A stretch of 64,000 bases of DNA from Candidatus Puniceispirillum sp. GTDB lineage: Bacteria; Pseudomonadota; Alphaproteobacteria; Puniceispirillales; Puniceispirillaceae. Below are positions 2,083 through 19,287 of this stretch, in pieces. The notes below the pieces were generated by a model. The model made no database searches. It saw only the letters and a list, made by a program, of their open reading frames with translations, and was not told the DNA's origin. Numbering within the stretch: position 1 is the first letter of the stretch; the number at the start of each line of letters is the position of its first letter. The stretch spans positions 35,538 to 99,537 of the forward strand of contig JAOEVD010000007.1 of NCBI GenBank assembly GCA_028383305.1, given 5' to 3'. The translations under genes and the position numbers were made by a program.

Positions 2083-2844
2083 TTAAACCGGCGCCTCGCG
2101 TTCAAAAACAAGGCGATTAGCATCAGACTGATCAGGTTGATAGCGATAGCCACCAGCGCGAAATTCCTTCAGGTCATCTTTGGCTTTCAATCTATTTTGA
2201 ACTAGAAAACGTGCCATCGCACCGCGCGCTTTTTTCGCATAAAAGCTGACAATTTTGGCTTTGCCATTTTTATTTTCCAAAAAGATCGGTGTCACAACGG
2301 GCAAAGCAAGGCTGGCAAGATCGACGGCGCCAAAATATTCTTTTGACGCGCAATTCAGCAATAGATCAGAACCGGTGGCGGCCGCTTGGGCGTTGAGCGC
2401 CTCGGCAATTTTTGTTCCCCAATAGTGATAAAGCGATTTGCCACGCTTTGTGGCGAGCCGGCTTCCCATTTCCAGACGATACGGCTCGATCGCATCAAGT
2501 GGCCGCAACACCCCATAGAGACCCGACAGCACACGCAAATGATTTTGCGCCCACGCCATTTCATCTGGTTCAAGGCTTGCCGCCTCCAGCCCCAAATAAG
2601 TATCACCAGCAAAAGCAAGCGCCGCTGGTTTTTTATCCTGCGACCCGAAATGGGCAAATCGGTCGGCATTCAGCTTCGCCAAACTTTCACTAATCCCCAT
2701 CAGGGATTGAAGCTTATCAAGACTGATATTTTGCATGACATTGGCTAGCTCATTGGCCTCGTCGCCAAAGATAGGCTGGGTTGGCACGATATCTTCGGAT
2801 GGTTGCATGTTCAATTTTTTGGCAGGCGAGATTACAACCAGCAT
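2083..2844 (-). CDS. yaaA: Peroxide stress protein YaaA family (DUF328)
   Basis: MLVVISPAKKLNMQP N-terminus, LSGLYGVLRPLD, YRLEMGSRL. Confidence 0.9.
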   Translation of the reverse strand: MLVVISPAKKLNMQPSEDIVPTQPIFGDEANELANVMQNISLDKLQSLMGISESLAKLNADRFAHFGSQDKKPAALAFAGDTYLGLEAASLEPDEMAWAQNHLRVLSGLYGVLRPLDAIEPYRLEMGSRLATKRGKSLYHYWGTKIAEALNAQAAATGSDLLLNCASKEYFGAVDLASLALPVVTPIFLENKNGKAKIVSFYAKKARGAMARFLVQNRLKAKDDLKEFRAGGYRYQPDQSDANRLVFEREAPV

Positions 2845-3019
2845 AGATATGTTCCTTCATCCCAGGGATAATTTAAAAAACTTTAATGAACATTCAGCGC
2901 GGATGAGCTTTATATCCAGTGTCATGATATGAAATTAGTGCCAGAAATTCCAGAGCGATCTTTGACGCATGTTCCCGCACCAATAATCCAAGCAGCATTC
3001 CACAGCACTTTCCATTACA

Positions 3020-4876
3020 TTAGGTAAGGCTTTTCAATTTCTGTTCAACCTCTTGAAAGGCTTGCTGGCGGTTCCACATTTTATGATAAAGACCATTTTG
3101 TGCCAACAAATTCTGATGCGTACCGCGCTCGGCAATCTGCCCCTCGTCCAAAACAATAATTTCATCCGCCGTTACGATTGTTGACAGGCGATGCGCAATG
3201 ATGACGGCGGTTCGATCTTTTAGAACGAGGTCCAATGCTTGATTGATATCCTGTTCGGTTTTTGTATCAAGCGATGATGTGGCCTCGTCCAAAATCAGAA
3301 TTGGTGGGGCTTTTAAAATCGCCCTTGCAATGGCAACACGCTGTTTTTCACCGCCAGATAGTTTCAACCCGCGTTCGCCAACTTCGGTTTTAAGCCCGCT
3401 TGGCAGCGACTGGATAAAGCCATCAATCTTGGCACCCACTGCCGCGCTCCAGACCGCTTCCTTGCCAGAATCCAAATGCCCATAGTGAATATTATAGCCA
3501 ATCGTGTCATTGAACAGAACGGTGTCTTGCGGCACCACGCCAATGGCGGCGCGGAGGCTTGTTGCCTTGACCGACCGGATATCCTGCCCATCAATGAAAA
3601 TACTGCCGGTGGTGACATCATAAAACCGGCATAGCAATCGCGAAATGGTCGATTTGCCAGCCCCCGATTGCCCGACAATAGCAACGGTTTTTCCGGGTGG
3701 CACATCAAAGCTGATGCCACGCAAAATTGGCCGGTCATCCGCATAATGAAAATGCACATTATCAAAACGAATCGCCCCTGACGGCACGGTTAAATCACGC
3801 GCATTCGGCAAATCAGTAATCTCGGCAGGTGTTTCCAACAAACCAAACAGAACTTCAATATCGGTGAGGGATTGCCGAATTTCACGATAGACGCCGCCAA
3901 TAAAGGCAAGTGGCTGCGACAGCTGGATCAAAAACAGATGAATCAGAACAAAATCACCAATCGTCTGTTCACCGCGAACGACCGCATTTGCCGACAATAT
4001 CATTGAGGCCATCATGCCAAGCGAGAAAATGGTAGCTTGGCCAAAATTCAGCCAGCCAAGCGAGGTTGATGTTTTGACTCCGGCCTTTTCATATTGTGCA
4101 ATAGCATGATCAAACCGCGCCAATTCGATGTTTTCATTGGTGAAATATTTGACCGTTTCATAATTCAGCAGCGAATCAACCGCGCGCGTATTCGCCTCAG
4201 TATCAGATCGGTTCATTTCACGGCGAATAATGGCTCGCCAATTGCTGGTTTTCACCGTGAAGACGCTATAGCTAATGACGGTAATCGCAATCACCAAAAC
4301 ATAGGCCGCGCCAAAATTATAAAAGAAAATCCCCGCATAAAGGGCAAATTCAAAAATCACCGGCAAGGTTGATAACACCGTATAGCGAACAACGCTTTCA
4401 ATGCCCTTGGTACCGCGTTCGATCACGCGTGAAAGGCCACCGGTTCGCCGCTGCAAATGAAAACGCAATGACAATTGATGCATATGGCTAAAGGCACGAA
4501 GCGCAAGCTGACGAACAGCATGCTGGCTGACACGAGCAAATAACGCATCGCGAAGCTGGTTAAAGGCAATGCTTAGAATGCGCGCCGCAACAAAACCCAG
4601 AATGAGCATCAGGGGGGTTAGCAAAAATAACGGTAAAAGAGGTAAATCAAGCGCATTCCCAGCAAGGCTGTCAGTGACATATTTGAAAAAGAACGGCACC
4701 GTGGCTGTCACCAATTTGGCAGCAATCAGCAGCAGCACCGCAACAAACACCAGACGCTTTAGGCTTGGCCGGTCATGCGGCCAAATATAGGGCCATAGCT
4801 TTACAACAGTCCCAATGACCGGTTTTTCGCCCATCTGACTTTGGGGAGATGTTGTTTCGGGTTTGCGATTCATCAA
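3020..4876 (-). CDS. ABC transporter, fused ATPase/permease of the Atm1/ABCB7 type
   Basis: Walker A VGQSGAGKSTISRLL, signature LSGGEKQRVAIARA, Walker B ILILDEATSSLD; N-terminal TM domain resembling Atm1. Confidence 0.88.
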   Translation of the reverse strand: MMNRKPETTSPQSQMGEKPVIGTVVKLWPYIWPHDRPSLKRLVFVAVLLLIAAKLVTATVPFFFKYVTDSLAGNALDLPLLPLFLLTPLMLILGFVAARILSIAFNQLRDALFARVSQHAVRQLALRAFSHMHQLSLRFHLQRRTGGLSRVIERGTKGIESVVRYTVLSTLPVIFEFALYAGIFFYNFGAAYVLVIAITVISYSVFTVKTSNWRAIIRREMNRSDTEANTRAVDSLLNYETVKYFTNENIELARFDHAIAQYEKAGVKTSTSLGWLNFGQATIFSLGMMASMILSANAVVRGEQTIGDFVLIHLFLIQLSQPLAFIGGVYREIRQSLTDIEVLFGLLETPAEITDLPNARDLTVPSGAIRFDNVHFHYADDRPILRGISFDVPPGKTVAIVGQSGAGKSTISRLLCRFYDVTTGSIFIDGQDIRSVKATSLRAAIGVVPQDTVLFNDTIGYNIHYGHLDSGKEAVWSAAVGAKIDGFIQSLPSGLKTEVGERGLKLSGGEKQRVAIARAILKAPPILILDEATSSLDTKTEQDINQALDLVLKDRTAVIIAHRLSTIVTADEIIVLDEGQIAERGTHQNLLAQNGLYHKMWNRQQAFQEVEQKLKSLT

Positions 4877-6526: not shown

Positions 6527-8320
6527 TTATTGGCCCAACGCTATACCTTCGCGTCTGGGATCGGCACCCCCAGCAAGACCATCTTTTGTGATTGAAATTG
6601 CATGGAGACCAGAATTTAAAGCACGCAATTTGACCTTGTAACCAAGTGCCTCCATAGGCTCTACCATGTTTTCGAGCGAAGTCCCCTTTTCAAGGTCAAA
6701 GGTTCCAAAACGATTAATCGCATGAGGTGTAGATACGGCAGCTTGTACATTCATACCCCAATCGATATGCGAGACGATCGCTTCTGCCACATACCCAATT
6801 ATTCGAGACCCACCCGGCGAACCAATAACTAAAGTTGGCAAACCATCTTTAAGTACAATTGTTGGAGACATCGAAGATCGGGGGCGCTTTCCTGGCTCAA
6901 CTCGATTAGCAATGGGCAGCCCGTTGATGTGGGAACTAAAGGAGAAGTCAGTTAACTCATTGTTCAGCAAAAATCCATTGGTCATCAAACGGGACCCAAA
7001 TCCATTTTCAATTGTAGTAGTCATCGACAACGCATTTCCATAGCTGTCTACAATTGAGATATGCGAAGTTGAAGGCAATTCCAAACTCACATCATCTGCC
7101 CACAGGGATGCATGCGAATATTCAGGATTACCAGGTACGACTTCAGTCAGAGCAGTTGAGGCAGTGAGTAGCTTCGCACGTTCAGATAAATAATCATCTG
7201 AGACAAGTCCTTTAGTGGGCACAGCCACAAAATCGCTGTCGGCCATATAGCGCCCGCGATCAGCAAAAGCTAGACGCGAAGCATCACCCACAAGCCTCAT
7301 AGTGTGCGGATTGCCCCGAGAGCCTACTGGAAACTGGTCTAATAAACCTAAAATTTGACCGACAGTTAGAGCTCCAGACGATGGTGGTCCCATACCGCAG
7401 ACTTGATGTCCCCGAAATGGGACACAAATAGCAGGACGTTCTCTCACCTCGTAAATATCCAGATCCGTGAGGGTAATCACACCTGGATTACTTTTTGCAC
7501 CTCGAACAGTATCCACAATCGCTCTGGCGATATCACCTGAATAGATCACCCGAGCGCCCTCATCGGCCATTCTGCGCATGACATCGGCATATTCCAAATT
7601 GGTCAGCCTACTTCCTTCCACCAGAGGTTTGCCGCCCTGAAAAAAATAAGCTTCTGTATCAGGGAACTGCCTCAATCGATCAGCGTCTGCGGCCACCAAA
7701 GCGGCAAGTCTTGGAGAAACCGAGAAGCCGCTCTCCGCCAGATCAATAGCCTCTAAAAATAAATCGCTCCACGCCTTTTGCCCCCACCTTTTATGTGCAG
7801 CTTCCATCAAGGCGGGCGTGCCTGGCACTCCAACTGAGCGACCACCAACTACCGCATCCCAAAATTTTAGTCGCTCGCCATTTGCATTTTGAAACAGTCG
7901 CGGTGTGGCAGCCATGGGTGCGGTTTCACGTCCATCTAATGTTGTTAGTTTCCCAGTGGTAGCGTCAAACCATACGAGGAAAGCCCCACCACCAATACCA
8001 GAGCTCTGTGGCTCAACCAAACCGAGGACTGCCTGCACAGCCACCATTGCATCAGCAGCTGTACCACCCTCTTTTAGAACGCGAGCACCTGCAGCTGCAG
8101 CGTGAGGACTAGCTACAGCAACCATCCAATCTTTTGCTAAAATCGGTTCGCCCCGGGCCTTCGCTGCAAGCGAAGCTGCCACCTCTGGCGAGAGAAATTC
8201 AAACTTTGTTGCTAAGGCTGTTTTTGCTTCAGGCAACACTTCATCTGAGACCTGCTGCGCTTGCACAGAGACCGAAAAAAGTGTTATGGCCGCAACTATT
8301 GCTGAATTAAAAAAAATCAC
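6527..8320 (-). CDS. ggt: Gamma-glutamyltransferase (Ntn hydrolase)
   Basis: Signal peptide; SGIGGGAFLVWFD, TTTIENGFGSRLM, RPRSSMSPTIVLKDG, GSPGGSRII. Confidence 0.9.
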   Translation of the reverse strand: MIFFNSAIVAAITLFSVSVQAQQVSDEVLPEAKTALATKFEFLSPEVAASLAAKARGEPILAKDWMVAVASPHAAAAGARVLKEGGTAADAMVAVQAVLGLVEPQSSGIGGGAFLVWFDATTGKLTTLDGRETAPMAATPRLFQNANGERLKFWDAVVGGRSVGVPGTPALMEAAHKRWGQKAWSDLFLEAIDLAESGFSVSPRLAALVAADADRLRQFPDTEAYFFQGGKPLVEGSRLTNLEYADVMRRMADEGARVIYSGDIARAIVDTVRGAKSNPGVITLTDLDIYEVRERPAICVPFRGHQVCGMGPPSSGALTVGQILGLLDQFPVGSRGNPHTMRLVGDASRLAFADRGRYMADSDFVAVPTKGLVSDDYLSERAKLLTASTALTEVVPGNPEYSHASLWADDVSLELPSTSHISIVDSYGNALSMTTTIENGFGSRLMTNGFLLNNELTDFSFSSHINGLPIANRVEPGKRPRSSMSPTIVLKDGLPTLVIGSPGGSRIIGYVAEAIVSHIDWGMNVQAAVSTPHAINRFGTFDLEKGTSLENMVEPMEALGYKVKLRALNSGLHAISITKDGLAGGADPRREGIALGQ

Positions 8321-8526
8321 TAATCGCTGTCCACTCCAAGATTTGCAATTCAGGTCTTAAATAAGCACAACTCAAACATCAAAGGAACAGCGGGTAAAAA
8401 ATATTCCATGCTTATGGCAATTGCCACCAAGGAGCTGCATAGAGCAGCAGAGTAGCTGAAATGGGACGAAAAAACCTCTGAATTTTTCACACATACACGA
8501 TGATAATCTCGGCTTTTCGGTTATAC

Positions 8527-14852: not shown

Positions 14853-15647
14853 TTGCCTGAAGGTCACACAATCCACAGAGCCGCGAGGGATCATCACCGA
14901 ACACTCGCTCGCCAGAAACTGACTGTTTCTTCACCACAGGGGAGGTTTTCCGAGGGTGCCTCACTTATTAACGAGCAAATATGTTCAGCTGTTGAGGCAT
15001 TTGGTAAACATCTTCTTTATAAGTTTAATAACGAATATACACTGCATATACATTTGGGGCTATTCGGCCGAATTCGAAAACAAAAATTACCATTAGCAGA
15101 GCCAAAGAGCTCCGTGCGTATCCGCTTGATAGGCAAAAAATATCTTGTGGACATAATTGGCCCAACTATTTGCGAGGTCTTAGATCAAAAAGGGGTGATG
15201 GCCCTCATTGGTCGAATAGGACCAGATGTTTTACGCCCCGATGCAAATCCTGACTTTGCTTTTGAAAAGATAAAACGAAGCAAAGCACCAATTGGTCGCC
15301 TGATTATGGATCAATCTATTATGGCAGGAATTGGTAACATATATCGCTCAGAAATCTTATGGCGCCAGGCAATACACCCTGAAACGCCCGGCAGAGCAAT
15401 TGACCGGCAGACTTTTAATCGAATTTGGGACGACGCTTGCGCCTTGCTTGCTATTGGTGTTGAGCGGAATGCTATAATAACGATATTTGACGGGCAATTA
15501 TCAAAAAAACGATATGGTGAAAAATTCAATATCTTTGGGAAAGCCAACTGCCCAAAGTGTGAAGGTGAGATAAGGCGTTTTGAGATTAGTGGACGACGAA
15601 CTTTTGTATGTGACACCTGCCAGCCTCTTATGAGGCAACTGGGTTAA
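14853..15647 (+). CDS. Fpg/Nei-family DNA glycosylase (endonuclease VIII-like)
   Basis: TTG start, MPEGHTIHRAARDH, MDQSIMAGIGNIYRSEILW, zinc finger CPKC-x14-CDTC. Confidence 0.88.
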   Translation: MPEGHTIHRAARDHHRTLARQKLTVSSPQGRFSEGASLINEQICSAVEAFGKHLLYKFNNEYTLHIHLGLFGRIRKQKLPLAEPKSSVRIRLIGKKYLVDIIGPTICEVLDQKGVMALIGRIGPDVLRPDANPDFAFEKIKRSKAPIGRLIMDQSIMAGIGNIYRSEILWRQAIHPETPGRAIDRQTFNRIWDDACALLAIGVERNAIITIFDGQLSKKRYGEKFNIFGKANCPKCEGEIRRFEISGRRTFVCDTCQPLMRQLG

Positions 15648-16136: not shown

Positions 16137-17591
16137 ATGTCGGTGACGCCCTCCAGTGCTTCCAAACTTCCGGCCAGTGATTATGTTATTTTTGGAGGAA
16201 CTGGCGATCTGTCTTTTCGCAAGATTTTCCCGGCCTTTTTCTGGCGGTATCTTGATGGCCAATTGACAGATGATTTTCGGCTTTTTGCCACTTCGCGACG
16301 GGCGTTCAACACCAGGGATTTCGCTGAGGCCCTGCGACCATTCTGTGAAGATGCATTTGCCAGCGGCTACGCGACAGAGGAGCGCTGGCAGGCGTTTCTA
16401 AAAATAATCCAAATTGTGATTATGGATGTTGCCAACGGCGATGGTGTAGGCAGCCTCGTCACTCAAATTAGGGAAAAAGCCAGCATTGATCGTCCGACTA
16501 TCTTTTATCTGGCAATCGCGCCGAGCCTTTTCGGCTCCGCCGTGCAGATGTTGAAGACTGCTGGGTTGGCAAGCCCACAAGCTCGGTTGGTTGTAGAAAA
16601 ACCATTGGGCAATGACAGCGCATCATCGCGCACGATAAACGAAAAACTGTCCGCAGTATTTAACGAGAGTCAGATATACCGGATTGACCATTATCTGGGC
16701 AAAGAAACAGTACAAAACCTAATGGTATTGCGCTTTGCCAATGTGATTTTTGAGTCCCTATGGAGCAATCAGCACATTGATCATGTCCAGATCACCGTGG
16801 CCGAGACAATTGGTGTTGGCAAACGCGCCGACTATTACGACAGATTTGGCGCAACCCGAGACATGGTTCAGAACCACCTTTTGCAATTGGTGTGTTTGGT
16901 AGCAATGGAACCGCCAACCTATTTTGCCGCTGATCAGGTGCGTGACGAAAAACTGCGCGTATTACGAGCACTACGCCCCCTGTCATTGGATGACTTGGCA
17001 TTGGGGCAATATGCTGGTTATCGTGAGGAATTGGGCGAGGCTTCCAACACCGAGACCTATGTGGCAATGAGGCTTTCGATTGACAATTGGCGGTGGGCAG
17101 GCGTCCCTTTCTATATTCGTACGGGTAAAAAACTAGAACAGCAGGCTTCTGAGATTATAATCACCTTCAAAAACCTGGCCCATGACATCTTTGCCAAAAG
17201 TGGTGGTGATAAGCTTTCTGACTATCCGAACCGATTGGTAATCCGCTTGCAGCCAAGTGAGGGCTTGCGTTTACACATGACCTCAAAACAACCTGGCCCT
17301 GGCGGTATGCGGTTGTCCCCATCTGATTTGAATCTGAGCTTTGAAGAGACGTTTGAAGAACGATTGCCAGATGCGTACGAAAGGCTGTTGATGGATACGG
17401 CGCGAGGCAACCAGACTCTTTTCATGCGTGGTGACGAAGTGATGGCCGCTTGGAGCTTTATTGACCCAATATTAGCTATGTCTGCAAACATCGCACCAGC
17501 AAGATATGTAACAGGATCAATGGGGCCTGATGACACGCTTTTAGAGATGGATGGGCGTCAATGGATTGATCCGGATCAGGATTGGCGATGA
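16137..17591 (+). CDS. zwf: Glucose-6-phosphate 1-dehydrogenase
   Basis: FGGTGDLSFRK, RIDHYLGKETVQNLMVLRFAN, VPFYIRTGKKL. Confidence 0.93.
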   Translation: MSVTPSSASKLPASDYVIFGGTGDLSFRKIFPAFFWRYLDGQLTDDFRLFATSRRAFNTRDFAEALRPFCEDAFASGYATEERWQAFLKIIQIVIMDVANGDGVGSLVTQIREKASIDRPTIFYLAIAPSLFGSAVQMLKTAGLASPQARLVVEKPLGNDSASSRTINEKLSAVFNESQIYRIDHYLGKETVQNLMVLRFANVIFESLWSNQHIDHVQITVAETIGVGKRADYYDRFGATRDMVQNHLLQLVCLVAMEPPTYFAADQVRDEKLRVLRALRPLSLDDLALGQYAGYREELGEASNTETYVAMRLSIDNWRWAGVPFYIRTGKKLEQQASEIIITFKNLAHDIFAKSGGDKLSDYPNRLVIRLQPSEGLRLHMTSKQPGPGGMRLSPSDLNLSFEETFEERLPDAYERLLMDTARGNQTLFMRGDEVMAAWSFIDPILAMSANIAPARYVTGSMGPDDTLLEMDGRQWIDPDQDWR

Positions 17592-18205
17592 TTGTTGTAA
17601 ATCAAATAACGGCCGCATTAGCTTCTGGCATCGCTCAACGAGGCAGCGCCAGTTTTGTAGTGCCAGGTGGGTCCAGCCCAGCTTTTATTTTTAAGGCGTT
17701 AGCCAACGGCGAGTATAGCACCGATGTTGATTGGGCGAGAGTAACCATCACCCTTGTCGATGATCGTCAGGTACGAGGCAATCACAATGACAGCAACCGC
17801 AAACTTATCCGAGCACAATTATTACGTGGACCTGTGGTCGCCGCAAAATTCTTGCCGCTAACCATTGCCGGACCTGTGACGAAAATGGACCGGCCTTTTG
17901 ATGTGATGTTGTTAGGCATAGGGCTCGATGGACATTTTGCTTCACTATTTCCGTCGATGGTGGGTGATGCGGCGATGAATGTTAATACCGCGCCCGCAAT
18001 TATCCAGACTGAGCCAGAAGGGGACCCTCTGTGTCCGCGTATTTCAATGAATTTACCTATGATTTTACAATCGCGTTTGGTGTTTTTATTGGTCAAGGGT
18101 GCAGCCAAACAAGAAATTCTTAGAGCTGCACAAACAGATCAGTCGTTGCCAGTGCATCATTTAATTACGCAAACTGTCAAATCAATCCAAATCGTAACCC
18201 AATAA
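17582..18205 (+). CDS. pgl: 6-phosphogluconolactonase
   Basis: VVPGGSSPAFIFKAL, VTITLVDDRQVRGNHNDSN, GIGLDGHFASLFPSM; overlaps the zwf stop. Confidence 0.85.
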   Translation: MAMIVVNQITAALASGIAQRGSASFVVPGGSSPAFIFKALANGEYSTDVDWARVTITLVDDRQVRGNHNDSNRKLIRAQLLRGPVVAAKFLPLTIAGPVTKMDRPFDVMLLGIGLDGHFASLFPSMVGDAAMNVNTAPAIIQTEPEGDPLCPRISMNLPMILQSRLVFLLVKGAAKQEILRAAQTDQSLPVHHLITQTVKSIQIVTQ

Positions 18206-18235: not shown

Positions 18236-18784
18236 ATGGCCAAGTTGCATGACCGCGTAGCAGAGGTTCAGGAACGCATCCGCCGGCGCAGTGCCGCCAG
18301 TCAAATTGCCTATCTTGATGAAATAATGATGATGCGCCAATCACCAGACTCTAACCGGCGGCAGATATCCTGCTCGAACATGGCTCATGCGGCCAAAGAA
18401 GCTGGTGCACACTTCGCGGTATCACCTGGGACCACACAGGCAGTGATTGATGGTTGTGAAGCGGCGGATCTGCCATTGCTGCCAGGCGCTAGCACCGTCT
18501 CCGAAATGATGCATTTGCTGGAAGCTGGTTTCACTACAATGAAGTTTTTTCCAGCTAGCGCAGCTGGTGGCACGAGCTTGATAAGATCATTGACCAGCCC
18601 CCTACCACAGATAAAAATCTGCCCAACAGGAGACATTTCAGCAATTTCTGCGCCGGAGTGGCTGGCATTGCCAAATGTGGAATGCGTAGGAGGATCATGG
18701 GTAGCACCACAAAACCTGATCAATGCGGGTGATTTTGCCGCTATAGAGGCCTTAGCAACTGAAGCCGCATCTTTGACTGGCTAG
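18236..18784 (+). pseudogene. In-frame deletion fusion: N-terminal about 50 aa of phosphogluconate dehydratase (Edd) joined to C-terminal about 130 aa of KDPG aldolase (Eda)
   Basis: MAKLHDRVAEVQERIRRRSAASQIAYLDEI...NRRQISCSNMAHA matches Edd N-terminus; AKEAGAHFAVSPGTTQ...MKFFPASAAGG...CPTGDIS...CVGGSWVAP matches Eda C-terminus. Confidence 0.85.
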
Positions 18785-19287
18785 GCGTGCACCTCTCTTA
18801 CCTTCAGTAATGCATTAGACAGACCCACCTGCGCCCCCCGCAATCCGGCGTTTGGATCTACACTCAGCCAAACCGGTAAGCTTGTGGTTAGGTGGCTTTC
18901 CTTGCCAATCTTCTGAATACGCGCGGCGAGTTGGCTTTTATCAATGAGTGGGGCCAGTTGCGAAACAATACCACCAGCCAGAACCACACCACCCCAGGCA
19001 CCAATTGTCAGTACATTATTCGCGATTACTGTCCCCAGCATGTTGAGCATCATCACCGCTGCATCCCGGCAGGGGCCGGCTTCAGCAACAGCCGCTGCAC
19101 CAATTTTTGGCGCGCTCATCTCTGGTTCATCAGGTTTATCACGTATCAAAAAGCGATAGATATTCTCTAGCCCACCACCACTAACCATATGTTCTGCTGA
19201 AACATAGCCCTGCGCGCGCCTAATAAAACCATAAAGTGCCTGTTCAGCTTCCGATTTTGGGGCAAAATGAGCACAAAAAAGGCGCTA
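18781..19287 (-). pseudogene. Glucokinase, 5'-truncated remnant
   Basis: VSGGGLENIYRFL and GGVVLAGGIVSQLAPLI are glucokinase C-terminal; same frame continues upstream as RLFCAHFAPKSEAEQALYGFIRRAQGYVSAEHMVSGG to an in-frame TAG near 19290, with no N-terminal ATP-binding half. Confidence 0.75.

Follow-up and report, generated by a model that had tools for sequence, protein, structure and literature searches.

The open reading frame (ORF) at positions 18,236-18,784 of the 64,000-nucleotide stretch of DNA analysed here (the window) joins, in frame, the beginning of an edd gene to the end of an eda gene. With good confidence we interpret it as a deletion pseudogene in a lineage that is losing the Entner-Doudoroff pathway, in which edd and eda are supplied by an apparent integrative element on another contig, C15. 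An eroded operon accompanied by apparent mobile-element genes illustrates how a pathway can return, and would represent a core sugar pathway caught while being lost and re-supplied.

The ORF lies on the forward strand, starts with ATG and encodes 182 amino acids. By hmmscan against NCBIfam, its residues 5-54 match positions 1-49 of 601 in the Edd family TIGR01196 (E 9.9e-6), and residues 50-178 match positions 73-201 of 204 in the Eda family TIGR01182 (E 3.5e-42), while the Pfam family PF01081 is covered only at positions 71-196 of 196. These matches, an alignment with Edd of the relative G030, an alignment with E. coli Eda (1eua), a codon comparison across seven relatives and a test of invariant columns assign residues 1-51 (18,236-18,388, forward) to edd and residues 54-182 (18,395-18,781, forward) to eda, with a junction zone of two codons between them (codons 52-53, GCG GCC, Ala-Ala; 18,389-18,394, forward) that can be assigned to either gene. 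The protein therefore consists of Edd from residue 1 to about 52, continued in frame by Eda from residue 83-84 or so onward. In relatives it matches edd and eda as two separate neighbouring genes, with 64% identity to edd of G030 over residues 1-59 and 66-69% identity to eda of G030 and G022 from residue 38 or 43 to residue 180. Judged from these comparisons the two-gene make-up is far above chance, bearing out the preliminary description, which had recognized a 182-codon ORF after zwf-pgl with an Edd N-terminus and a C-terminal portion of Eda. The possibility that the ORF is an intact family unrelated to Edd is rejected, as both halves match their parent families. The chimera scores 24.1 bits against the TIGR01196 cut-off of 708, failing Edd membership, for which the full-length catalytic region is needed, and its 144.1 bits for TIGR01182 lie below the family cut-off of 156.05 bits; to annotate this locus as "eda" would be wrong. 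The Edd'-'Eda fusion was found in no other genome searched, a scan of named genomes returning ordinary eda genes only; it had no match in the IMG/VR scan and no published description in the literature searched. Promoter and terminator matches at the locus showed no excess over shuffles, and Rfam gave no match near it.

The size of the deletion was taken from G022 and G030 of genus g8, the nearest relatives with an intact cluster, where the orthologous locus is present undeleted, with the missing part intact and edd and eda as separate genes. Measured from the equivalent of chimera Ala53 to the next eda codon, the chimera is short of 1,922 nt relative to either of the two, matching the in-frame deletion of roughly 1.9 kb that had been proposed from the letters alone. 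Seven relatives were compared at the place matching the junction: edd has Ala-Ala there in every one and eda in four, and a deletion between such short matching segments (microhomology) is the likely mechanism. The start codon is kept and the frame has no internal stop, so that either the deletion is recent or the protein is tolerated.

Both genes directly upstream are open, as their intact appearance had suggested. zwf (16,137-17,591, forward; glucose-6-phosphate dehydrogenase, 484 aa) is intact and scores above the TIGR00871 cut-off, and no other zwf was found in the genome. pgl (17,591-18,205, forward; 6-phosphogluconolactonase, 204 aa) falls just under the TIGR01198 cut-off (E 9.5e-36) and, aligned with pgl of G022 and G030, is open over its full length. 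On the other side, a convergent C-terminal glucokinase fragment, glk' (18,781-19,284, reverse), covers positions 159-312 of 314 in PF02685, and the two stops, its own and the chimera's, overlap within one CTAG; an intact glk is present on contig C81. The order zwf-pgl-edd-eda with a downstream convergent glk is the same in g8 and g2. G030 and G022 carry two extra genes of 311 and 407 aa between eda and glk (oxidoreductase-like and epimerase-like by eye), and G016 has a different ORF in this interval, which makes it uncertain that the window ever lost the two genes. With the convergent glk truncated as well, the locus is eroding.

Sequence comparison and structure prediction indicate that the chimera is very probably inactive. 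In KDPG aldolase, Lys133 is catalytic and Glu45, Arg49, Thr73, Pro94 and Phe135 are substrate-recognition residues (PMC5334617). The alignment with 1eua is gapless from residue 83, and the chimera retains the C-terminal two thirds of the aldolase with the equivalents of Pro94, Ser184 and the Schiff-base Lys133 (chimera residue 103), but the sites of Glu45, Arg49 and Thr73 precede the join and are missing, as is the initial third of the barrel, and chimera residue 133 is Asp where Gly163 is invariant in the 27 other Eda sequences compared. As to Edd, the first 50 or so residues align at the start of the TIGR01196 profile, but more than 90% of the protein is missing, including all catalytic and Fe-S regions. 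Profile coverage and the 1eua alignment thus agree with the earlier statement that the catalytic part of Edd and the Glu of Eda are gone and the Schiff-base Lys is kept. Among invariant columns, two of 34 are changed in the Eda part (a Gly and a Lys) and one of ten in the Edd part (an Arg); the resulting 3/44, compared with 2/190 for window zwf and pgl together, is a marginal difference (Fisher p 0.047) and a small signal of relaxed constraint. Synonymous sites between the chimera and g8 are saturated, hence dN/dS is unusable. AlphaFold2 gave the chimera a mean pLDDT of 65.6 and a pTM of 0.59, as against 92.6 and 0.89 for intact G030 Eda modelled from an equally shallow alignment.

Elsewhere in the genome, contig C15 carries intact genes for Edd (610 aa) and Eda (210 aa), preceded by a pgl truncated at its 5' end, where the first codons are missing. 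C15 and the window's contig are linked only by binning, by similar composition and by a C15 flank that is 95% identical to other genus members, in a draft of 81 contigs with an estimated completeness of 84%. The search for further edd, eda and gnd suggested at the outset thus recovered the first two on C15, and gnd had no match in this genome or in the family. With the sole zwf in the window, a complete pathway requires window zwf-pgl together with the edd-eda of the element; the window genes could therefore still feed the intact C15 genes, and together, on predicted functions, they would form a working Entner-Doudoroff route. The C15 genes differ in ancestry from the window operon: C15 edd groups with that of G020 of genus g6 (support 100/100) and C15 eda likewise (100/98), and in the window zwf groups with g8 (100/99), as does the eda part of the chimera (91/91).

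The order on C15 is an ABC gene, tRNA-Arg(CCG), a D5-type primase, small ORFs, pgl', edd, eda, a 49-nt copy of the tRNA 3' part, an integrase and a further repeat copy. The edd-eda block stands between tRNA-derived direct repeats, with a tRNA 3' end on both sides: in L006, the C15 locus, the tRNA occupies 15298-15374, the 49-nt repeat carrying its 3' part lies at 8318-8366 and 15294-15342, and a 61-nt direct repeat lies at 7050-7110 and 15251-15311. The integrase is of the tyrosine type (PF00589 and phrog_1 matches) and the primase is phage-type. Since the integrase lies beyond the repeat copy at which the edd-eda part ends, a tandem or composite structure is likely; the block is built like an element integrated in a tRNA gene, or more probably like two such elements in tandem, with uncertain limits, and by this anatomy it is an apparent integrative, mobile element. 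The ABC gene and tRNA-Arg(CCG) are conserved in the genus with different genes behind them, a related integrase following the same tRNA directly in G010 and a related primase standing there in G022. The tRNA is a recurrent integration site (L006 15298-15374, L160, L161, L239), followed by varied integrase, primase or end sequences. A copy of the element primase, 78% identical and with five in-frame stops, lies in L238 (G014:C57) at 49-1662; by its sequence, this other member of the genus has the remnant of an element of this kind. Positions 11704-11805 of L006 hold two 36-nt repeats with 30 nt between them, of CRISPR-like geometry, and the captured pgl fragment starts exactly at the end of the second; the core of this repeat was not found in IMG/VR. 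A 58-nt repeat is also present in two copies inside the element (L006 12635-12692 and 13066-13123), the second overlapping a sub-threshold SAM-V riboswitch match (33.6 bits, cut-off 41). IMG/VR yielded two distant relatives of the C15 Edd and no match to the element primase. Phage records match Edd at less than 60% identity, for the most part through ilvD genes or unannotated fragments, and in plasmid records edd is common at an identity of at most about 61%; with phage and plasmid genes as distant as these, the searches revealed no vector for the C15 block.

The course of events may then be reconstructed as follows. An ancestral zwf-pgl-edd-eda cluster faced a convergent glk, as in g8, and a loss of about 1.92 kb, running from the Ala-Ala segment of edd to its counterpart in eda, would have left an in-frame, very probably inactive Edd'-'Eda protein. 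The adjoining glk would have lost its 5' half too, and the lost steps would be met by edd-eda of the tRNA-Arg(CCG)-associated element, although the order of these events is conjectural. Of the preliminary interpretation the scar stands; its proposal of a stable or repurposed chimera is not supported, and it had missed the C15 edd-eda, the absence of gnd, the truncation of glk and the lack of the pathway in most of the genus.

If the chimera had been retained in a new role, such as that of a binding or regulatory protein based on the kept aldolase C-terminus, this would account for the open frame, the start codon and the Schiff-base Lys. We consider such a role very improbable, given that no relative searched has the fusion, that otherwise invariant residues are altered in both parts, that the predicted fold is weak while that of intact Eda is good from an alignment no deeper, and that the adjoining glk is decaying too. 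Scarcely more credible is an artefact of assembly or amplification, in which edd and eda are complete at the true locus and the 1.9 kb disappeared during assembly or through chimera formation. Chimeras can form at short matching segments in amplified DNA, and the draft is fragmented and incomplete. Yet the genome already holds a separate complete edd-eda, and the altered invariant residues in both halves, with the truncated glk, show that decay has occurred apart from the join itself.

The distribution among relatives also fits a pseudogene formed by deletion where the pathway is being lost. In all eight other genus members that are at least 90% complete there is no zwf, no edd above the family cut-off and no eda detectable with the chimera; in the other genera of the family, zwf, edd and eda are all present in 17 of 17 genomes of at least 90% completeness. 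In G013 and G014 edd and eda (L084, L085), and in G014 also zwf, group with another family, so that with genes of g8 type and G020 type the genus holds Entner-Doudoroff genes of three origins. In L098 (G029:C25), inverted eda copies at 2673-3287 and 16706-17320 are of equal identity to the query, through either duplication or an assembly effect. How the window block entered the genus is a separate matter. It is conceivable, at somewhat less than even chances, that the genus did not inherit the zwf-pgl-edd-eda-glk block but took up all of it from a g8-like donor, with decay setting in afterwards: window zwf clusters only with g8, while an rpoB tree (in which the window genome had no rpoB match) joins g8 with g2 and places g1 beside them, and G013, G014 and G005 conserve the right-hand neighbours of the block with other genes where it stands. 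However, the g2+g8 node of the rpoB tree is weak (89), and with g1 adjoining, the data are almost as well explained by vertical descent and loss elsewhere. Acquisition would alter the early history only; the scar and its rescue are unaffected.

Cultured SAR116 relatives have neither phosphofructokinase nor 6-phosphogluconate dehydrogenase (PMC3368413); the Entner-Doudoroff pathway has been reported for the two SAR116 subclades alike (PMC8547437). Provided that the taxonomic placement holds, a genus with eight near-complete genomes without zwf, edd and eda is an exception to the latter statement. A more speculative thought, which we rate as rather unlikely, is that the lower half of the pathway serves as exchangeable cargo in this genus, the chromosomal zwf-pgl being kept and edd-eda coming and going on tRNA-Arg elements; if true, the main glucose route could be gained or lost by one integration or excision.

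No description of edd-eda as cargo of a tRNA element was found in the literature searched. A related known system is that of Vibrio parahaemolyticus, whose metabolic islands include KDPG aldolase genes (PMC6537148). The two are alike in that carbohydrate genes, KDPG aldolases among them, are gained and lost on islands that bear an integrase and att sites. They differ in what is carried: the Vibrio islands add side pathways, whereas the C15 element carries the core edd-eda pair, complementing a broken chromosomal operon.
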